Shown here: one piece after another, positions 13,025 through 50,200 of the stretch
Layout: each line of letters starts with the position of its first letter
How positions within the stretch are numbered: the first letter of the stretch is position 1
Virus record (IMG/VR): IMGVR_UViG_3300044644_001125
Location: 19,623 to 83,622 of that record
DNA: 64,000 nucleotides
Source: a virus
Reading direction: 5' to 3' (one strand)
Position numbers and translations under genes: made by a program
The notes under the pieces: model-generated
What the model was told of the DNA's origin: nothing
The model's database searches: none
Seen by the model: the letters and a program-made list of their open reading frames with translations, nothing else

Positions 13025-14644
13025 ATGGCAAACAGAAACCTAGATGGCGTTCAAATCTTAAGAGCACATCAAAAACAACAATACACACTTGAACAAGTAC
13101 AACACTTAGAGAAATGTATGGATCCAGTTACTGGACCTCTTTACTTCTGCAAAAACTTCTTGAAAATCCAGCATCCAACTAGAGGTGCAATCCCATTTGA
13201 ACCATACGAATATCAAGAAAGATTGATTCAAGCATATAACGATAATACTTATACAATCGCTATGCTACCACGTCAGATGGGTAAAGCACTTTGCAACGAA
13301 ACTCCTGTATTAACACCAAATGGATTCAAACGAATGGGTGATATCCAAGTCGGTGATACTATCTATACACCTAAAGGTACACCAACTGAAGTAACTTTCA
13401 TTACTGAAACGATGACAAATCGTACTTGTTACAATGTTGAATTCTCACACGGTGAAAGTATTATCGCAGATGCACACCACCTTTGGACTTGGTTTGACCC
13501 AGGCTACAATGACTTGATTACTGAAAATACCGAATACCTGATTAAACGTGTTAATAAGTTTAAAACGTCAAACATTAGACTCAGTATGGATTATACAAAA
13601 CTCATTGAATTCGACAAGAAACCAATGAAACTAGATCCATATCTAATCGGTATTTGGATGGGTAATGACCCAGAAGTAAATCAAATGAGATGCTATACTC
13701 ACGAATATACCAGATATAACGAGATGTTTAAATCCCATGGTCTTACTATGTCTGAATTAACACTAAGAAGACACAGTAAACGATTGGGTATGTACTCAGT
13801 TAATAACCTAGAGTTCATGGTAAAACCGGTTCTTAATAAGGATAATACCTTACCAGAAGAGCTCATGCTCAATGATTCTGAAACTCGTTTACAAATCATT
13901 AGAGGTATTATGGATGTATGCGGTAGTGTATCAGATACTGGGTACTGTACTTTTAAACATACCAATGAGAAAATCATGGAACAAACACGTTTCATGTTGG
14001 CTACTCTAGGTGTTAAAACCCATTTGAAAGTCGAAGTCTGTAAGTTTAAAACCAATTACTATCTTAATTTTTCAACTAAAGACTTAAGACTATTCAATCT
14101 GTCTGAGAAAGTTGATAAAGCTGCATTGAGTAATCACTTCCCAAATAATGAAAGAGTTTATATCAAAAGCATTACCAAAGCAAAATCAGTACCAGTTAGA
14201 TGTTTACAAGTGGCAGATAGAAAACATCTATTCCTAGTGGGTAAAACTCTAGTACCAACACATAACACTACTTGTGCATGTGGATTCTTGCTCTGGTATA
14301 CCATGTTTGTTCCCGAAGCCCAAGTACTGATTGCTGCTCACAAATACGCCGGTGCACAAGATATTATGAACCGATATCGATATGGCTACGAGAACTTACC
14401 AGACTTTATCCGTGCCGGTGTTTATTCATATAACAGGAATACAATCGAATTTGATAATGGTGCTCGTATCCAAGCAACTACCACTACTGAAAATACAGGT
14501 CGAGGTAAGTCGCTCTCTTTGATTTATTGCTTAGATGGAGATACTACTGTTCGTATCAGACACAAGGAAACCCTTGTAGAAGAAGAGATATCACTCGCTG
14601 CGTTATATCAACGACTTGACCCAGCGGTACAGGTTATTGCTTAA
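13025..14644 (+). CDS. 17: Terminase large subunit, N-terminal piece, with Walker A intein and split-intein N half
   Basis: 539 aa precursor. Extein residues 1-87 end in PRQMGK, the Walker A motif of the packaging ATPase; a contiguous intein fills 88-414; the extein resumes TTCACGFLLWYTMF (415-501) and reaches GRGKSLSLIY. From Cys502 the frame reads CLDGDTTVRI..., the N-terminal 38 residues of a split intein, and stops. The Walker B acids, the rest of the ATPase and the nuclease are encoded in two further ORFs at 18538 and 20315. Removing inteins and joining all pieces gives about 530 aa, close to T4 gp17 (610 aa). Confidence 0.93.
   Translation: MANRNLDGVQILRAHQKQQYTLEQVQHLEKCMDPVTGPLYFCKNFLKIQHPTRGAIPFEPYEYQERLIQAYNDNTYTIAMLPRQMGKALCNETPVLTPNGFKRMGDIQVGDTIYTPKGTPTEVTFITETMTNRTCYNVEFSHGESIIADAHHLWTWFDPGYNDLITENTEYLIKRVNKFKTSNIRLSMDYTKLIEFDKKPMKLDPYLIGIWMGNDPEVNQMRCYTHEYTRYNEMFKSHGLTMSELTLRRHSKRLGMYSVNNLEFMVKPVLNKDNTLPEELMLNDSETRLQIIRGIMDVCGSVSDTGYCTFKHTNEKIMEQTRFMLATLGVKTHLKVEVCKFKTNYYLNFSTKDLRLFNLSEKVDKAALSNHFPNNERVYIKSITKAKSVPVRCLQVADRKHLFLVGKTLVPTHNTTCACGFLLWYTMFVPEAQVLIAAHKYAGAQDIMNRYRYGYENLPDFIRAGVYSYNRNTIEFDNGARIQATTTTENTGRGKSLSLIYCLDGDTTVRIRHKETLVEEEISLAALYQRLDPAVQVIA
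13286..14266 (+). other. Contiguous intein in TerL Walker A, class 3-like, with LAGLIDADG remnant
   Basis: 327 residues. It begins with Ala (ALCNETPVLTPNGF), not Cys or Ser, and ends PTHN before Thr. Block B reads HHLW (Trp at the B:12 position), block F reads VRCLQV (Cys at F:4), and Thr precedes the final His-Asn (G:5). That W-C-T set is the signature of class 3 inteins, which start splicing from the block F Cys. The middle holds two LAGLIDADG-like helices (YLIGIWMGNDPE and IRGIMDVCGSV); the second has Cys where the catalytic Asp is expected, so the endonuclease may be inactive. Confidence 0.85.
14528..14641 (+). other. Split intein A, N-terminal half
   Basis: 38 residues beginning CLDGDTTVRI and containing SLAALYQRL. 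A Cys1, a block A of the CxxxDTxV type and a very short N half match the atypically split inteins known from metagenomic TerL genes (AceL-TerL type). Its partner is at 18538-18873. Confidence 0.85.
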
Positions 14645-15124
14645 TGGCTCGCTGACGCTCGCACATATAATATGAAACTAAAAGACGTAACTATCCATTA
14701 ATAGAATACTAAAAGATGATTGTCTTATTAGGTATATTATCTTTTAGTTATGATGTTCTTATAGATGATGTTTATATTTGATCTATTATCTTTTAGTTAT
14801 GATGTTCTTATAGATGTTTGTATTAATGGTCTTATTGATGTGAGTTATTAGATAATTATCTTTTAGTTCAAAATGTATGGGTTCGTATGGAGTTTATAAC
14901 GTATGTGTGCATCTGGTAAAAAGCTATAATGTATGGGTTCGAATAGATCTAAAATGTATGTGCGCGAATGGAAACAGCTATAAGGGAATTATCTTTTAGA
15001 GTCAAAATGCGTGTGCGCGTGGCTTAAGCAGGTAGGAAGTAATGGATTCATTATCTTTTAGAATTATCTTATACGCTCCTACTATAATAGATTTAAGATA
15101 GAATCATTAATAGCTTTAATAATA
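14645..15124. repeat. Gene-free, repeat-rich stretch inside the first TerL break
   Basis: No ORF is supported. It contains a GCTCGC-type dyad right after the TerL-N stop, five copies of ATTATCTTTTAG (14736, 14785, 14855, 14988, 15050), a 33-bp direct repeat (14735-14767 and 14784-14816), and variants of AATGTATGGGTTCG and ATGTGCGCG. A TATAAT box lies near 15078. Confidence 0.7.
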
Positions 15125-15612
15125 GAGGCTTTTAATACTGCGGTATGTGGAGCGGAACATCTTAACCCGAAAAACTCGGGTTAATTCAAAGCATTCTCAA
15201 TTGGGTTTTAAGTAATTGAAAAGTTCTGCGTACAAGTATCGCATCACAGCAGCAGTAGAGCGTTACAGAGGCGGTCAGCCGGTACCTCGAGCTCAGTCTT
15301 ATTAATCTGACGGTGGCCACATGAACAACTGCTACCTCATTCATGCGACGTGGACTTTTTAGTCCATCTTTAGCCTTTGTAAATCTTTTCGCTATAACAC
15401 AAATGGGTTGTATGAAGGCATATCCCATAACTCATCTGGTGGGGTAGTGTGTTATATCTCCGTTGCTAACTTCGGAACTTCCATCCCTTGTGATCAAGTA
15501 GTCCAAGGTTTAAGGGCATCATATCAGTCGCCGATGCAGGCTTTCTTAGCAATTCTCTCGTCTTTCTATGTTCTATCTAGTAATTCGACGAGCAAGGTTT
15601 GGCTGGTGCCTA
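15125..15612 (+). ncRNA. Candidate structured RNA of unknown class
   Basis: About 490 nt, visibly richer in G+C than its flanks, with no convincing ORF on either strand and many local inverted repeats (AACCCGA/TCGGGTT at 15162-15180; CATGAA/TTCATG at 15319-15345; GGACT/AGTCC near 15352). A TATAAT-like box at about 15078 suggests forward transcription. It does not resemble tmRNA or RNase P. It could be a large phage RNA of the GOLLD/ROOL kind or a decayed element; orientation and ends are uncertain. Confidence 0.4.
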
Positions 15613-15730
15613 AAAGATAATAGACTTGGTGTCGGTATTGTATATAGTTCAAATAGACTTTGTGTCGGTAGGATTTGGTCTCTAAAAGATAATTGAGTAA
15701 TAGACTTGGTGTCGGTATGGATTTGAGATG
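15610..15730. repeat. Triplicate 17-bp direct repeat
   Basis: TAGACTTGGTGTCGGTA occurs at 15621-15637 and 15701-15717, with a one-base variant at 15654-15670. CTAAAAGATAAT copies at 15610 and 15682 are interleaved. Confidence 0.85.
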
Positions 15731-15867
15731 GTCTCGGTAAACTGCTTTTGTGTAAGTATGATTAATTATAACTTAGATTATGGGGACTGTCAACCTATTT
15801 TTCAAGGTATCTCGGGTAATTCTTTAGTATAGTTAATTGTAATCTATTTTGATTGGGTTGTCAACTG

Positions 15868-16581
15868 TTATTTTGGAAGATTATCGAAAAACTCTGTGTA
15901 TGGGTCGTTTTTGATATTACTGTACTCAACTCGCAATCCTTTTAATTTTTCTTCCTGACCAGCAATTAGATCATCAAAATTGCCATTTTGATTATGTTTA
16001 TGTAATGCTTCTATTGCTGCTTTTATTTGTTCAGCTTGGTTTTTGATGCCTTCTAATTGAGTATTAACTAGTTTATTATGATATTCAATTGCTTTGGCTT
16101 TGGTCGCTTCCCAGTCATATTCCACTCCATTGGAATTAAGAAACTTTTCTACTTTAGCCTTGCGACCGTATTCGTTCGCAACTCTCTGCAAATTACCCAT
16201 TTCATCCCTAGCCAACATCTCATCAATGTTAGCCTGTAGGTCATCAACAAAACGAATCTTAGATTTTATTTTCTCACTTTGTTGTTTCGGTGCACCTTCA
16301 GCCGAACGCTCCCATTGAATAACGGTACCACCTTTATTTGTTGTTTTTTCAACTCTGGTAATACCAATATCGTCTAAGTAGAAATCAATACGAAATTGAT
16401 TCTTATACATAGAACCTTGGGTAGAAAAGAACTTTTCACCGTCTAAGTCGTGTGCGTTTGATAGGATGAATTTAGCTTGTTTCTCTGATTTAAACTTACC
16501 ATCATTGTAATCTTTTAAACCATATAATGTTTTTGCAATATCACCCTCTGTGGCTTCTGCTAATATGTCTTTTACTTGCAT
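15868..16581 (-). CDS. Putative capsid-internal protein with targeting peptide
   Basis: 237 aa. It starts MQVKDILAEATEGD, matching the targeting peptide pattern with a likely cut after LAE. The body is charged and largely helical, with coiled-coil potential around residues 170-225 (NQAEQIKAAIEALHKHNQ). A reverse-strand TAAATA box at 16608-16613 and a GAGG ribosome site precede it, consistent with late expression. It lies on the opposite strand inside the first TerL break. No enzyme motif was recognised. Confidence 0.6.
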   Translation of the reverse strand: MQVKDILAEATEGDIAKTLYGLKDYNDGKFKSEKQAKFILSNAHDLDGEKFFSTQGSMYKNQFRIDFYLDDIGITRVEKTTNKGGTVIQWERSAEGAPKQQSEKIKSKIRFVDDLQANIDEMLARDEMGNLQRVANEYGRKAKVEKFLNSNGVEYDWEATKAKAIEYHNKLVNTQLEGIKNQAEQIKAAIEALHKHNQNGNFDDLIAGQEEKLKGLRVEYSNIKNDPYTEFFDNLPK

Positions 16582-16607
16582 TGAATTTCCTCATTTAACT
16601 GATCTTG

Positions 16608-16613
16608 TATTTA
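16608..16613 (-). promoter_or_regulatory. Late promoter box
   Basis: CATAAATAC on the reverse strand, 26 nt before the start of the capsid-internal candidate gene. Confidence 0.6.
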
Positions 16614-16631
16614 TGATGCATCAATTATCTT

Positions 16632-16910
16632 TTAGACATCACGAACAGCAAGCACACTCCATTTACAACTTTTCAAATCAGTGCCACGTTCAACAAGATC
16701 TGGAAATGGATATAAACTTTTAGCATGTCGATCACCATGCTCTTCACTCGACCAATACCAGTGAATTCCTGTAAATGCTCTAAACTCCCTAAACTCTGCT
16801 TCAGTTGGCAATCTCCAACCAATTCTACCATCTACATTTAATGCAAAACAGTAAAATTTGGCAGTATCCCAGTCCATGCTTAATTTGGTTTCGTAGAATT
16901 CTAGGGTCAT
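16632..16910 (-). CDS. DUF1566/Lcl-like domain protein
   Basis: 92 aa from the ATG at 16910, which overlaps the upstream stop as TAATG. It has one Lcl/DUF1566-type domain: an AKFYCFALN helix, then GWRLPTEAEF, then WYWSSEE and a terminal VLAVRDV strand. The family is a C-type-lectin-like fold found in bacterial surface and phage proteins; its target here is unknown. Its stop codon is part of a CTAAAAGATAAT copy. Confidence 0.6.
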   Translation of the reverse strand: MTLEFYETKLSMDWDTAKFYCFALNVDGRIGWRLPTEAEFREFRAFTGIHWYWSSEEHGDRHAKSLYPFPDLVERGTDLKSCKWSVLAVRDV

Positions 16911-17509
16911 TAGAGATCTCTTACCGGGTGAATTAAACACGTTTCATCCGGATCATTGCCAATATCATCGGAATGCCAAAAATAAGCATGCATAAGGTTA
17001 AAGTAATAACATTCTTCCGGTGTGGGAAACCGCCAGCCAACCTTACCATCGATATTAAGTGAAAAACAATACATCTGCGCTTCTTCTAATGATGTAGCTT
17101 TGATATACGACTGTGGTGCTAACTCAACTGGTATGTTATAAAATGGTTCTATTGTTCTAACAGCTCTAACATGCAATTCATAATCATCAAACCCCTCATC
17201 GTCTGAATCAGTTAGGAAGTCGTAGGTTTGTATAACAGTAAGCGGTTCTTCTTCTGATTCAACTATTCTATAACTACTAGACCAATATTCTGGAGTCTCA
17301 ACCGATCCATCAACATACGCATCGCATAACTTAGTATCTAATCTAACTTCTTGTATGTATTGTTCCCGTATTATGTACATTTCGATGATGGTAGGTAACC
17401 TCCAACCTTCTTTATCATCTGCTACAAGATTGTCACAGTATTCAAGGGCATCTTCCCAAGTCGATACAACCTCTGTGCTTTTTGGTGCTAATTCTAAGTT
17501 AAAGTTCAT
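16910..17509 (-). CDS. Two-domain DUF1566/Lcl-like protein
   Basis: 199 aa from MNFNLELAPKS; an upstream in-frame ATG at 17575 would cross a hairpin and is less likely. Two Lcl-type repeats are visible: DALEYCDNLV...GWRLPTIIEM...YWSSSY, and AQMYCFSLN...GWRFPTPEEC...FWHSDD...HPVRDL. With the downstream gene, three related modules lie in tandem, implying internal duplication. A 6-bp inverted repeat TATGGT/ACCATA at about 17537-17554 lies upstream. Confidence 0.55.
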   Translation of the reverse strand: MNFNLELAPKSTEVVSTWEDALEYCDNLVADDKEGWRLPTIIEMYIIREQYIQEVRLDTKLCDAYVDGSVETPEYWSSSYRIVESEEEPLTVIQTYDFLTDSDDEGFDDYELHVRAVRTIEPFYNIPVELAPQSYIKATSLEEAQMYCFSLNIDGKVGWRFPTPEECYYFNLMHAYFWHSDDIGNDPDETCLIHPVRDL

Positions 17510-17591
17510 ATAGATATCAAAATGTAAGTTATTGGTATGGTAACTATACCATATAAGTAGACGTGACGCAAACATTATCTTTTAGAAATGT

Positions 17592-17597
17592 TAAATA
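17592..17597 (+). promoter_or_regulatory. Late promoter box before HNH gene
   Basis: GTTAAATAG lies 45 nt before the HNH gene. As nothing else reads forward here, it probably also drives the middle TerL piece. Confidence 0.5.
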
Positions 17598-17642
17598 GAG
17601 GTAATAAACTAATTACTTATTAATTTCAAACGGTGAACTATC

Positions 17643-19272
<1,630 letters not shown>

Positions 19273-19314
19273 ATACACGAAACCATTACTTAAATTTTCA
19301 TCAGGGATTATCAC

Positions 19315-20343
19315 ATGAGCAAGGCAACCTATTTATTATCTCCAATTGACGGAAACACCTACTGCAAAACCAATGGTAAGTTCACTATACATCTTAGGGA
19401 ATATGGACTTACCTATCAAGATTATTATGAAACTTATATACTTGGGTATTGTCCAATATGTGCATGCGGGTCTAAAGTTACGATGAATGTATCGACCCAT
19501 TTACATCCACGCAGTTGTGGAAAGCCTGTGTGTGTTGGTAAAATCACCAGCGATGTTAAACAGAATTGGACTCCGGAACAGAGAGAGCAGGATTCAGCCA
19601 ATAAGAAAGCCGCAAGTGCTGCAGAGACACCGGAGAAAAAACAACAGCGAAACGATAAACGTAAAGCAACTAACTTAAAAAATCACGGCGTTGAGTGGTC
19701 TACCCAGTCGGAAACAATGAAATCTAAGTCAAAACAGACTAAACTTGTACGACACGGTGATGAAAACTACAATAACAGCAAGATGATCAGTGCAACCAAT
19801 CTAGCAAAACCTAGAGAGGAAAAAGACGAGATCAATGAAAAACGACGTCTAACTAATTTAGATATGCATGGTGTCGAAAACTGCTGTTTGATTCCGGGAA
19901 ATTCGAGTAAATCGAATAAAGGAAACGCGAAGATTAAAGATTACACATTGCCATCTGGTAAGGTTATTGGAGTTCGTGGTTACGAACCAAATGCAATGGA
20001 TACCTTATTAGAATCGTATCAAGAATCTGATATATTGATGCACGATGATTACTCAGAATATCAAATCCAAGTTTTCAGCTATACCTCGGACAAAGGTAGA
20101 ATCGCGAAATACTACCCAGACATTTATATCCCTTCGGAAAACCGAATTATTGAGATCAAAAGTCAATGGTGGTGGGATGGTAATGGTAAGACTGACGAAA
20201 AATATACAACCCGACTTGCGAATAATCTTAGAAAAAGGCAAGCCGTGATTGATGCTGGATATAATTACGAAGTGTGGTTATTTACTAGCAAGACAAACTA
20301 TAGAGTACTAAAAGATGATGCAGACTTTCAAACCAAACACTAA
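19315..20343 (+). CDS. Vsr/EDxHD-like homing endonuclease in second TerL break
   Basis: 342 aa. The N-terminal part carries Cys pairs (CPICACG near residue 46) and repeated NLKNHGVEWSTQS / NLDMHGVENCC type modules that look like DNA-binding units. The C-terminal nuclease domain reads GVRGYEPNAMDTLLE, then YYPDIYIPSENRIIEIKS (D and E-x-K), and VWLFTSK. This fold was described as a new homing endonuclease family linked to fractured genes with split inteins. It lies exactly between the halves of split intein B and overlaps the TerL C piece by 29 bp. Confidence 0.8.
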   Translation: MSKATYLLSPIDGNTYCKTNGKFTIHLREYGLTYQDYYETYILGYCPICACGSKVTMNVSTHLHPRSCGKPVCVGKITSDVKQNWTPEQREQDSANKKAASAAETPEKKQQRNDKRKATNLKNHGVEWSTQSETMKSKSKQTKLVRHGDENYNNSKMISATNLAKPREEKDEINEKRRLTNLDMHGVENCCLIPGNSSKSNKGNAKIKDYTLPSGKVIGVRGYEPNAMDTLLESYQESDILMHDDYSEYQIQVFSYTSDKGRIAKYYPDIYIPSENRIIEIKSQWWWDGNGKTDEKYTTRLANNLRKRQAVIDAGYNYEVWLFTSKTNYRVLKDDADFQTKH

Positions 20344-20656
20344 GAACTTAAAGGTACTAACACCAGATGGATTCCAACCCTTCTCTGGTGTTAGTATGCG
20401 TGGAGTTAAACCAATTATTCGATTAACATTCGAAAAAGACGTATGGATAGAATGCACACCTGAGCATAAATTCTACATCTCTGAAACTGAACAAAAGTTA
20501 GCAAGTGATTTTAGGATTGGTGATACCATATTAAGTTCGGATGGTGATTTGAAGTTAATCACTTCTGAAGATTTGGGTAGAACTGAACCAGTATACGATT
20601 TAATTGAAGTTGCTAACGGTCATCGGTTCTATGCGAATTCACTATTAAGTTCGAAT
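20315..20656 (+). other. Split intein B, C-terminal half
   Basis: 114 residues: NLKVLTPDGFQPFSGV near the start, block B CTPEHKFYI, block F VYDLIEV, and end LLSSN before Cys. The penultimate residue is Ser instead of His. Confidence 0.82.
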
Positions 20657-21418
20657 TGCGAATTCTTAATTGATGATGAAACGTTAATTAATTCGGTTAA
20701 ATTGGCAGAACTAAAGGGTGTAGATCCGCTATTGACGATGGGGCAAATGCGTTGGTATAAAGAAATCAATCCATTGTCAACCTATCTAGTATCACTAGAC
20801 CCAAGTTTGGGAACAGGCGGTGACTTTGCTGCTATGCAAGTATTTGAAATGCCTAGTATGGAACAAGTGGGTGAATGGCGACACAATACCACACCTGTTC
20901 AAACGCAGATAAGGCATTTGAGGGATATCTTAAAACACATCCATGATAGTGGTATTGAAAAATCTGGGTTTGCTCCAACTACATATTACAGTATGGAGAA
21001 TAATACACTAGGTGAAGCAGCCCTAATCGTTATTGAGAGTATTGGTGAGGAGAACTTTCATGGGTTATTCCTGTCAGAACCGATTAAGAAAGGGCATATC
21101 AGGAAGTTCCGTAAAGGGTTTAATACCACACATAGAACAAAAGTTACTGCATGTAGTCAGTTTAAAAACTTATTAGAAACTGGTAAGATGAAGATTAACT
21201 CTAAAGTTCTAGTATCTGAGTTGAAAACTTATATCTCAAGGGGTGTTGGGTTTGGTGCTAAATCAGGTGAGAATGACGATTTGATTTCTGCAGTTCTTCT
21301 TATTATAAGAATGGCAACTGTATTATCTGATTGGGATCCATCGATATATGATAAGATGTCTGAGAAACTGACTGAAGATCAGATGCCATTGCCTATCTTT
21401 ATTAGTAGTGGATTCTAA
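20315..21418 (+). CDS. 17: Terminase large subunit, C-terminal piece, with split-intein C half
   Basis: 367 aa. Residues 1-114 are the C half of split intein B, ending LLSSN before Cys115. The extein (253 aa) carries the nuclease: STYLVSLDPSLGTGGDFAAM gives the first acidic residue, a YYSMENNT segment the second, and GENDDLISAVLL the C-terminal acids, as in T4 gp17. The start is MM at 20315/20318 inside the endonuclease gene. The stop codon falls in a CTAAAAGATAAT copy. Confidence 0.92.
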   Translation: MMQTFKPNTKNLKVLTPDGFQPFSGVSMRGVKPIIRLTFEKDVWIECTPEHKFYISETEQKLASDFRIGDTILSSDGDLKLITSEDLGRTEPVYDLIEVANGHRFYANSLLSSNCEFLIDDETLINSVKLAELKGVDPLLTMGQMRWYKEINPLSTYLVSLDPSLGTGGDFAAMQVFEMPSMEQVGEWRHNTTPVQTQIRHLRDILKHIHDSGIEKSGFAPTTYYSMENNTLGEAALIVIESIGEENFHGLFLSEPIKKGHIRKFRKGFNTTHRTKVTACSQFKNLLETGKMKINSKVLVSELKTYISRGVGFGAKSGENDDLISAVLLIIRMATVLSDWDPSIYDKMSEKLTEDQMPLPIFISSGF

Positions 21419-47358: not shown

Positions 47359-48372
47359 ATGAACTACGTAATAGATACCTTTAGAGAACTACTTCCACCA
47401 CTTAAATCCAGTGCTAGTAAATGGCAGAGTTTCAACTGCCCTTGCTGCCAGCATCTTGGTCACAACCGAGATACTCGTAAACGCGCTGGAGTTATGCTAG
47501 GTCCAGGAATTGTGTTCAATTGCTTTAATTGCAAATTCACTGCAGGGTGGCAACCCGGCCGTCCTATATCCGATAACATGAAACGCCTGTGCGCTTGGCT
47601 AGGAGCAAGTGACGCCGAAATCAAACGAATTGTATTCGAATCTCTTAAGGCAGAATCATCCGACTATGAACCAGATGAGAACAGCTTAGTTACCTTTACT
47701 GAAAAAGACTTACCAGAAGGTTCACTTCCTTTAGCTGAATGGATCTTGGTACAAGATTTAGATGACAGCATAGCCAATCATCTTTTAGGTGTAGTGGAAT
47801 ACGTGCTATCTCGTGGACTAGATCCAATGAGCGATACGTTCTACTGGAGTCCAAATCCTGCATTTTCTGATAGACTTATCTTACCATTCTGGTATAATAC
47901 CAAAATTGTTGGGTATACAGCACGACGTATTACCAACAATAGACCTAAGTATCTATCTGAACAACACCCTCATTTTGTGTTCAATTTGGATGCACAAGAT
48001 CCAATGAATCGGTATGTGTTGGTAACAGAAGGACCATTTGATGCACTTAGTATCAATGGCGTTGCGTTGTTAACAAATAACATTGCAGATCAACAAGCAC
48101 GTATGATTAATCGATTAGGTAAAGAAGTCATCGTGATACCAGACCAAGACATGGCTGGCTTGGCAGTTATTAAACGAGCCATTGAGTATGGGTGGTCTGT
48201 TGCATTTCCTACTTGGGAGCCTGATATAAAGGATTGTGCAGATGCAGTATTGCGTTATGGTAAGTTGTTTGTTATAGTTGACGTTATTAAATCTGCTGAA
48301 AGACACGAAGCAACAATTCGAATTAAAATGAAACATTTAGAACAACAAATACGGAGTTTGCATGGCAATTAA
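47359..48372 (+). CDS. 61: DNA primase, gp61-like
   Basis: 337 aa. It makes RNA primers for lagging-strand synthesis together with gp41. Zinc ligands are CPCC (residues 29-32) and CFNC (55-58). The TOPRIM domain shows VTEGPFDALS (acidic Glu) and VIPDQDMAG (D-x-D). Size equals T4 gp61 (342 aa). It overlaps the helicase gene by 11 bp, so the primosome pair is co-translated. Confidence 0.92.
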   Translation: MNYVIDTFRELLPPLKSSASKWQSFNCPCCQHLGHNRDTRKRAGVMLGPGIVFNCFNCKFTAGWQPGRPISDNMKRLCAWLGASDAEIKRIVFESLKAESSDYEPDENSLVTFTEKDLPEGSLPLAEWILVQDLDDSIANHLLGVVEYVLSRGLDPMSDTFYWSPNPAFSDRLILPFWYNTKIVGYTARRITNNRPKYLSEQHPHFVFNLDAQDPMNRYVLVTEGPFDALSINGVALLTNNIADQQARMINRLGKEVIVIPDQDMAGLAVIKRAIEYGWSVAFPTWEPDIKDCADAVLRYGKLFVIVDVIKSAERHEATIRIKMKHLEQQIRSLHGN

Positions 48373-50200
48373 GAACTATGATTATGATGTACAGAAAATG
48401 TACCTAGAACTAATGTTATCTGATGCAGAAACATTTGTACGTTGCCAAAGCATTTTTGACCATTCATTATTTGATAAAAAACTACAACCTGCTGCTGAAT
48501 TCATCCTAGAATATGTAAAAGGTTATACCGTGTTACCCGATTACAATATGGTTAATACTTCATGCCGTGCTAATTTAAAACCACCAAGTGAACTAAAAGA
48601 AGGTCATACCGCATGGTTAATTGATGAGTTTGAACAATTCATACGACATAAGTCATTGGAACGTGCGATCATTGCTTCAGCTGATCTTTTAGACCAACAT
48701 GATTATGGTTCAGTAGAAGCACTTATCAAAGAAGCAGTACAGATTGGTTTAGCACGTGATATGGGCATTGATTATTATGAAGACCCGAGAACACGTTTGA
48801 TGGGACTAAAAGATAAGAATGGCCAGGTGTCTACCGGTTGGGATTCATTAGATAAGATGTTATACGGTGGATTCAACCGAGGTGAACTAGAAATCTTCGC
48901 AGGTGGTTCTGGTTGTGTCATATATAGTACACCGGTTGAAGTTAGGGAAGTAGTAGACAGTATTTTTGGATTACCGAAGCATGTCCCAATTGGCTCATTA
49001 TTAAACAACACTGGTAAATTCGTAGTAAACAGCCCAGATGGTTGGGTTCCAGTACTTGATTGTGTGGAAAAACTAAAAGATGAGTTATACACGTTTGTAT
49101 TTGAATCTGGTGTAACCATTACTGCTAGTCATGACCACTTGTATCAGAAACCAGACTTATCATGGCACTATGCTAAAGATTTGCAAATAGGTGATGTTCT
49201 TTTAGCAGAACGCGGTTCTGATAAGATTGTTTCATTATCTTTTAGTAAGGAACCAACTAAAGTATATGACTTATCAGTAGATCACGACAATCACAGATAT
49301 TACACGGATACTATCTGCAGTCATAACACTGGTAAAAGTTTATTCTTAGCAAACCTAAGTGTTAACTTCTCATTTGCTGGGTTAAATGTTGTATATATCA
49401 CATTAGAGTTAAGTGAACCATTAGTTGGTATGCGTATCGATTCTATGGTTACTGGTATTGGTACCCGTGATGTATTCAAACAACTAGATGAAGTTGAAAT
49501 GAAAGTTAAGATGATTGGTAAAAAGTCAGGATCATTACAAATCAAATATCTCCCAAGCGGGAAAACGGTCAATGATATTCGCAGTTATCTAAAAGAGTAT
49601 GAAGTTAAAACTGGACTACGTGCAGACATTATCGTAATCGATTATATGGATTTGTTAATGCCAATTGGTAAGAAGATTTCAGCAGAAAACTTGTACATTA
49701 AGGATAAGTATGTTGCAGAAGAACTACGTAACTTGGCAGTAGAGAAGAATGCTGTTGGAATTAGCGCCGCACAATTAAATCGAGGAAGTGTGGAGGAGGT
49801 AGAATTCGACCACAGTCATATCTCTGGTGGTATCAGTAAGATTCAAACAGCGGATAACGTGTTTGGTATCTTTACCTCGAGAGCCATGAGAGAACGCGGT
49901 AGGTATCAACTACAATTCATGAAAACTCGTAGTTCTAGTGGTGTTGGTCAAAAGATAGACTTAGATTTTAATATCGATAGTTTACGCATAACTGACGTAC
50001 CTGAAGTTGAACAAGAAGCCAGTGGCGTAAGAGTAATAAACTCAACTGATTCGTTGATTGACAACATCAAACGTAAAACAAGTTTGGAAAATGCGAATGC
50101 TATTCCAGTAACCGTAATCAGCAGCAAAGGAACTGAAGTTGGGTCAACTAAACTACGTTCTATTATTAACAACCTAGGGACAGAAGAAGATGAATATTGA
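48362..50200 (+). CDS. 41: Replicative helicase, gp41/DnaB-like, with mini-intein
   Basis: 612 aa precursor. It is the ring helicase of the T4-type replisome. Extein 1-184 contains the N-terminal helical domain and ends IFAGGSG; the intein fills 185-322; the extein resumes TGKSLFLANLSV, rebuilding GGSGTGKS. IIVIDYMDLL is Walker B, followed by SAAQLNRG and RERGRYQLQFMKTRSSSGVG (Arg finger region). Mature length about 474 aa (T4 gp41 475). Confidence 0.94.
   Translation: MAIKNYDYDVQKMYLELMLSDAETFVRCQSIFDHSLFDKKLQPAAEFILEYVKGYTVLPDYNMVNTSCRANLKPPSELKEGHTAWLIDEFEQFIRHKSLERAIIASADLLDQHDYGSVEALIKEAVQIGLARDMGIDYYEDPRTRLMGLKDKNGQVSTGWDSLDKMLYGGFNRGELEIFAGGSGCVIYSTPVEVREVVDSIFGLPKHVPIGSLLNNTGKFVVNSPDGWVPVLDCVEKLKDELYTFVFESGVTITASHDHLYQKPDLSWHYAKDLQIGDVLLAERGSDKIVSLSFSKEPTKVYDLSVDHDNHRYYTDTICSHNTGKSLFLANLSVNFSFAGLNVVYITLELSEPLVGMRIDSMVTGIGTRDVFKQLDEVEMKVKMIGKKSGSLQIKYLPSGKTVNDIRSYLKEYEVKTGLRADIIVIDYMDLLMPIGKKISAENLYIKDKYVAEELRNLAVEKNAVGISAAQLNRGSVEEVEFDHSHISGGISKIQTADNVFGIFTSRAMRERGRYQLQFMKTRSSSGVGQKIDLDFNIDSLRITDVPEVEQEASGVRVINSTDSLIDNIKRKTSLENANAIPVTVISSKGTEVGSTKLRSIINNLGTEEDEY
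48914..49327 (+). other. Mini-intein in gp41 helicase
   Basis: 138 residues from CVIYSTPVEV to CSHN before Thr. Block B is TASHDHLY, block F KVYDLSV (Asp at F:4): a standard Cys1 intein without an endonuclease domain. Insertion is just before TGKS of the P-loop. Confidence 0.93.

Follow-up and report, generated by a model that had tools for sequence, protein, structure and literature searches.

The stretch analyzed here, called the window throughout, comprises 64,000 nt of the IMG/VR record IMGVR_UViG_3300044644_001125 (record positions 19,623–83,622), and positions below follow its numbering unless the record is named. The source record is a jumbo-phage virus of 327,256 bp, classed as linear and hence maybe incomplete. 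Within the window, the large terminase TerL is encoded on the plus strand by three open reading frames (ORFs) at 13025–14644, 18538–19272, and 20315–21418, in which extein segments alternate with intein parts. The first ORF starts with extein 1a (13025–13285, 87 aa), which runs to the Walker A residues RQMGK, and continues with a contiguous intein of 327 aa bearing a degenerate LAGLIDADG domain (13286–14266), extein 1b (14267–14527, 87 aa), which runs to the Walker B residues LSLIY, and the N-terminal half of a split intein, IN-A (14528–14641, 38 aa, starting with Cys1). The second holds the C-terminal half IC-A (18538–18873, 112 aa, ending in SHQ before a Cys), extein 2 (18874–19182, 103 aa, with the Walker B residues CDEF and a TSTP motif), and the N half of a second split intein, IN-B (19183–19269, 29 aa, Cys1), recognized by its sequence blocks. 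The third contains IC-B (20315–20656, 114 aa, ending in LSSN before a Cys) and extein 3 (20657–21415, 253 aa), identified by domain and PHROG matches as the nuclease domain with its D, E, and DD motifs. Removal of the five intein parts leaves a TerL of 530 aa. We refer to the Walker A insertion site as P and to the two gene breaks as A and B.

All three pieces matched phrog_36964 (7.8e-97, 1.6e-24, and 1.2e-47) and the full-length protein matched 80 IMG/VR contigs that encode the same TerL uninterrupted, which identifies it as a T4-gp17-like terminase; PF03237 and PF17289 matched the pieces weakly, under their cut-offs. The 80 contigs served as the junction reference, and against them the pieces fit exactly: at every junction (IAMLPRQMGK/TTCA, GRGKSLSLIY/CDEF, and RREF[DE]/CEFL) nearly all of them are continuous, with no residue gained or lost. 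Break A lies between LSLIY and CDEF, in Walker B, and break B between SREFN and CEFL. The extein and half-intein lengths given by the first-pass annotation, which was made from the letters of the DNA, were all reproduced, and the breaks that it placed at LIY/CDEF and SREFN/CEFL held to the residue. An intact TerL elsewhere had been named there as counter-evidence; a search of the 327,256-bp record with the spliced protein returned only the known pieces and no second TerL. Megablast of the TerL locus against isolated phages gave zero matches.

The class 3 inteins of mycobacterial DnaB sit in the P-loop. The Walker A intein of the window matches these inteins (PDB 6bs8, E 2.8e-23; 6rix, E 7.3e-22) and has Ala instead of Cys or Ser at position 1. 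The class 3 residues Trp, Cys, and Thr (WCT) correspond here to the W of HHLWTW, which follows the block-B His, to the Cys in SVPVRC, and to the Thr in PTHN; they align to both structures and are conserved in relatives. It shares the Ala1 and WCT positions with the mycobacterial inteins but differs from them in its TerL host, in its degenerate LAGLIDADG domain, and in the +1 Thr of its C-terminal junction (THN/T). In its central LAGLIDADG domain, GND and DVCG replace the GDG and DTDG found in relatives, so that both motif Asp residues are lost, and the nuclease is probably dead. The presence of a third intein in Walker A had been noted in the first-pass annotation, which overlooked its class 3 chemistry, along with the unusual ends of the split inteins and the recombinant origin of A that are described below.

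The inteins at A and B resemble the split inteins AceL-TerL, GOS-TerL, and Cat (PMC11766414; PDB 6dsl), with which they share the TerL host, the short N half, and Cys+1. Those have N halves of 25, 37, and 30 aa and C halves of about 104–115 aa, and CatC is a consensus derived from GOS-TerL and AceL-TerL (PMC11766414). Taking a break after about 25–38 aa, an IC of about 104–115 aa, and relatedness to CatC as the marks of this short-N type, both pairs (38 + 112 and 29 + 114 aa) belong to it and would splice in trans. In the PDB, IC-B (7.5e-11) and the A family (1.7e-10) both matched CatC best, which bears out the earlier comparison with AceL-TerL, and both C halves matched Pfam Intein_splicing solely under its cut-off. 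The C-terminal residue of IC-A is Gln (SHQ/C), and IC-B ends in Ser-Ser-Asn without a penultimate His; each of these ends is kept across its family. Contiguous and split forms of intein A occur side by side among relatives (L118 and L120 versus the split L119; L136 and L139 versus the split L137). The AlphaFold2 (AF2) model of the natural contiguous intein A of L118 (165 aa) reached a predicted local distance difference test (pLDDT) score of 91, with disorder only at residues 40–51, which coincide with the position of the gene break, and nearly all of its fold matches in the PDB were inteins, VidaL and CatC among them. Both pairs are thus assigned to Hint-fold inteins, with Cys1, a TxxH block, a C-terminal Asn or Gln, and Cys+1: A by its sequence blocks, the model of the contiguous form, and fold matches, and B by sequence.

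Each gap between halves contains one homing-endonuclease-like ORF on the plus strand, which at its 3' end shares 29 nt with the C-half ORF; the start codons of the C-half ORFs themselves lie inside these overlaps. Fractured genes with interposed endonucleases had been invoked in the first-pass annotation, and the gap contents agree with it. ORF A (17643–18566), recognized by motif and similarity, consists of a shared N-terminal domain and an HNH-like nuclease (HIDH...N...N). ORF B (19315–20343) is a DUF7487 protein (PF24308, E 2.1e-30) that also matches the homing endonuclease family phrog_3339. A PDB sequence search with both ORFs gave no meaningful match. The mosaic tract and cassette swap described below are indirect signs that they may act as homing endonucleases, cutting the empty site and driving gene conversion. 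Gap A also carries genes on the opposite strand, namely an ORF matching phrog_2274 (15868–16581) and two ORFs with Lcl_C domains (16632–16940 and 16910–17575, together 16632–17575). Beside them lies a non-coding stretch (15128–15550, minus strand) that is mostly 97–100% identical in L158 and L163, the closest relatives, with low segments of 87–90%. Within this stretch, Rfam placed the Polynucleobacter-1 RNA (RF01718) at 15392–15542 on the minus strand with 75.9 bits. This RNA family has been reported from Burkholderiales and fresh water (PMC2864571), and it may be a hint at the phage host.

The structured RNA in gap A, together with the known TerL introns of phage ICP1 (PMC10448857), raises the question of whether group I or II introns are removed with the gaps by RNA splicing, which would leave the inteins to act in cis. 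However, Rfam found no intron family in the window, gap A included at a permissive threshold, and the sole RNA match in gap A is RF01718, on the opposite strand. The separate start codons of the overlapping C-half ORFs and the opposite-strand genes within the gap also argue against introns. Moreover, in the isolate Salicola phage SCTP-2 (MF360958; L169, L187, and L188) TerL is encoded by three genes at about 217, 257, and 429 kb; sites P and A hold split inteins and extein 2 a contiguous one. Since tens to hundreds of kb separate the TerL pieces, which lie on different strands, RNA cis-splicing cannot join them, and we regard the intron explanation as very improbable. In the stretch of SCTP-2 that was viewed, only the last of the TerL pieces is annotated as terminase.

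Doubly split TerL genes, broken at both A and B, were found at 29 loci, which include overlapping extracts of one contig and collapse into 14 lineages at 95% identity. Three of the 14 lineages, the window phage among them, also have the contiguous Walker A intein, and in two (L141; L200/L201) three split inteins distribute TerL over four genes. Across the wider clade, the P, A, and B sites were each seen empty, contiguous, and split. Among isolates, TerL is split at Walker A in Agrobacterium phage Atu_ph07 and directly after the Walker B Asp-Glu in the Krischvirus coliphages kaaroe and JK32, in which the endonuclease is fused to the N half. In the TerL of Campylobacter phage CP21 (L171), a split intein directly precedes Walker B, and contiguous inteins lie near Walker A and directly behind Walker B; one portion of the CP21 TerL lies in an unannotated frame. 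An assembly error or chimeric contig could in principle have split an ordinary intein-bearing TerL, given that the window comes from one metagenomic record and that the opposite-strand genes in gap A look odd. The same codons are nevertheless broken in many independent contigs from many metagenomes, gap A of L163 also contains Lcl_C genes and the non-coding stretch, and split TerL genes exist in the sequenced isolates SCTP-2, kaaroe, JK32, and Atu_ph07. Because of this recurrence, an assembly artefact, which the first-pass annotation had listed as a possible refutation, can scarcely be credited.

Comparison with L158 and L163 revealed a recombination mosaic. These relatives have a type II C half at A, no endonuclease at A, and no B intein. 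The upstream exteins, IN-A, and the non-coding RNA stretch of the window are mostly 95–100% identical to theirs, and IN-A shares 36 of its 38 residues with L158 (94% identity to IN-A of L158/L163). Extein 2, on the other hand, is roughly 57–90% identical per 30-nt segment until near its 3' end, and extein 3 is 77% identical, rising to 97% after about position 20950. Between about 15.87 and about 20.95 kb, much of the sequence is thus foreign to the L158/L163 lineage, with the Lcl_C genes in this tract still 82% identical to L163. Since IN-A matches L158/L163 but IC-A is of the other type (type I), the sequences indicate that intein A is a naturally formed chimaera whose N and C halves differ in origin. 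Directly after terL, both relatives carry a TnpB-like ORF of 423 aa (L158, 7829–9100; L163, 10670–11941) that is absent from the window.

At site A, the type of C half goes with the type of nuclease: type I (ending in HQ) occurs with an HNH-like nuclease at 31/31 and type II (ending in N) with an EDxHD/Vsr-like one at 11/11 of the loci with a recognized nuclease. These counts include related phages and are not independent, and the labels derive from similarity to the ORFs of the window and L146 plus motifs rather than from a curated family. At site B, DUF7487 and GIY-YIG genes alternate. As the clearest example of a swap, the near-identical contigs L133 and L146 share flanks (97–100%), IN-A (100%), and the N-terminal domain of the endonuclease (99.8%), whereas the nuclease domain and IC have been exchanged as a single block whose 3' border is the Cys+1 codon of extein 2; the same IN-A therefore stands opposite two different IC types in near-identical phages. 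The similarity of IN-A between IC types (0.605) is as high as that within types (0.601), whereas that of IC falls from 0.56 within to 0.36 between types, and IN-A similarity correlates more strongly with that of extein 1b (rho 0.49; partial 0.48) than with that of IC (rho 0.22; partial 0.18). The swap, the matching of IC with nuclease, the tracking of extein 1b by IN, and the chimaeric window together suggest a process of half-intein homing, to which we give an even chance. Under this proposal, a resident and promiscuous IN would be inherited with the upstream extein, nuclease domain and IC would form a mobile cassette, and pairing would be loose within a site and tight between A and B.

Codon comparisons with L158 indicate strong purifying selection on the TerL exteins, with 10 synonymous and 0 non-synonymous changes in the 174 codons of exteins 1a and 1b, and 61 synonymous versus 7 non-synonymous changes in the 253 of extein 3. 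Because of this selection, the gene cannot be called a wreck. The unusual block G residues, the chimaeric pairing of IN-A with IC-A, and the dead LAGLIDADG domain of the P intein would fit a decaying or dead TerL, or else pieces that form an unspliced non-covalent complex. Against decay stand the selection on the exteins, the near-identity of IN-A with that of L158, and the record, in which no other TerL was found; and break A, which severs the strand of Walker B at Y/CDEF, would be a poor place for non-covalent assembly. We consider both variants improbable. In sum, assembly error, RNA introns, a second TerL within the record, and pseudogene decay were each examined and rejected on the grounds given above.

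The exact junctions, the purifying selection, the 14 lineages, and the lack of a second copy in the record make two trans-splicing events and one cis-splicing event by far the best reading of this locus, as the first-pass annotation had suggested. We consider it highly likely that TerL is a fractured gene broken twice and made from three proteins, with an imported tract beside the resident IN-A. The three proteins would be extein 1 (with its contiguous class 3 intein) followed by IN-A; IC-A, extein 2, and IN-B; and IC-B followed by extein 3. IN-A would dock with IC-A and IN-B with IC-B to form two complete Hint domains, and the exteins would be ligated by class 1 trans-splicing, from Cys1 to Cys+1, with a final step that would proceed from a C-terminal Gln in A and from an Asn lacking the usual penultimate His in B. 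The Walker A intein would leave in cis by class 3 chemistry, through its internal Cys and with Thr+1, and the end product would be the uninterrupted TerL. Each break may represent a former homing-endonuclease insertion point inside an intein, with the endonuclease genes mobilizing the site by homing, and about 5 kb of sequence, comprising nuclease A, IC-A, extein 2, and the whole of B, probably arrived by recombination. Several points weigh against this reading. We infer splicing, pairing fidelity, and endonuclease activity from sequence; the terminal Gln in A and the missing penultimate His in B are unusual, though family-conserved; the chimaeric A pair might splice poorly; and with a linear record, a further TerL may lie outside it.

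The middle protein has the order IC-extein-IN that is used to make cyclic peptides, and therefore leakage between A and B would circularize extein 2 or join extein 1 to extein 3. If the two pairs were not orthogonal, the middle protein would partly circularize through IC-A and IN-B, and cross-products would lower the yield of TerL. This order, the membership of both inteins in one CatC-like family, and the interchangeability of N halves between GOS-TerL and AceL-TerL, which are closely homologous (PMC11766414), speak for such leakage. Nevertheless, mean identity is 31% between IN-A and IN-B and 30% between IC-A and IC-B, and IN-B lacks the conserved basic-then-acidic charge pattern (about +3/−3) seen in IN-A at 13 of 14 loci. 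These differences favour orthogonality, which we regard as plausible, and make substantial leakage rather unlikely. The strict orthogonality that the first-pass annotation expected is thus plausible between A and B; within site A, the N half is evidently less strict, since the same IN-A faces two IC types. The AF2 model of the middle protein is of low confidence (pLDDT 62, predicted template modelling score 0.42).

Other inteins were observed in the same phage. A DnaB-like helicase ORF in the window (48362–50200, plus strand) has a mini-intein in its own Walker A (GGSG/...HN/TGKS). Elsewhere in the record, DNA polymerase B is also fractured (L189, record 256.5–261.5 kb) into an N-half ORF, a Vsr-like endonuclease ORF, and a C-half ORF. 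A ribonucleotide-reductase-like ORF has two contiguous inteins and a portal-like ORF one intein (L190, L191; record about 193–195 kb and 319–322 kb). The 10-mer TATCTTTTAG (mostly ATTATCTTTTAG) occurs at 41 sites in the window versus 0.26 expected, and at 172 sites (88 + 84) in the whole record versus 2 + 1 for the reversed control; it is also present in L158/L163, but not in L133, L146, L083, or L145.

If this reading holds, the locus would be a case of natural tandem protein trans-splicing, in which an essential motor protein is built from three polypeptides (four in relatives) via two (three) short-N split inteins. Such loci supply candidates, already matched by nature, for sets of orthogonal split inteins, and the swaps of N and C halves that have occurred among them indicate which pairs tolerate exchange. 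Should the chimaeric pair A splice, IN-A would be promiscuous within its site, and should half-intein homing be true, the mobile unit would be half an intein. The co-occurrence of contiguous, split, endonuclease-bearing, and endonuclease-less alleles at one site makes the origin of split inteins directly readable. Phage annotation appears to overlook many intact proteins by listing fragments, and isolates with a broken TerL, such as the coliphages kaaroe and JK32, for which laboratory E. coli serves as host, bring this biology within experimental reach.

Each kind of element seen here was already known: TerL-borne split inteins with a short N half, genes fractured around an interposed endonuclease, and class 3 inteins. 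In the literature searched, which was mostly open-access, no naturally occurring gene with two or three split-intein breaks was found, and priority on this point is uncertain. AceL, GOS, and Cat have been characterized as single pairs, whereas the window TerL has two pairs and a third intein, with A ending in Gln; the AceL intein is presumably located at the CEF site, that is, at site B. The fractured genes of Dassa and colleagues (2009) are reportedly broken once, by a split intein whose halves flank a free-standing homing-endonuclease gene, and have Vsr-like (EDxHD) nucleases. The window and its relatives share with them the split-intein break, the interposed endonuclease gene, and the Vsr-like (EDxHD) nucleases, but here there are two breaks (three in L141 and L200/L201), and a given site may carry nucleases of different kinds (HNH or EDxHD, DUF7487 or GIY-YIG). 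SCTP-2 likewise has three TerL genes with split inteins plus a contiguous intein, and an HNH gene adjoins its IC-A; its genes, however, are dispersed and split at P and A, whereas those of the window are split at A and B. Pseudomonas phage MIJ3 (PMC6892783), another jumbo phage, has a split-intein break with an HNH endonuclease ORF between the halves, but this is a single break in its DNA polymerase PolB, and its TerL, which is among the closest isolate sequences to that of the window (51%), is uninterrupted. Finally, engineered tandem protein trans-splicing (PMC12707363) also joins three segments by two orthogonal split inteins; that system was designed, whereas the phage arrangement is natural.

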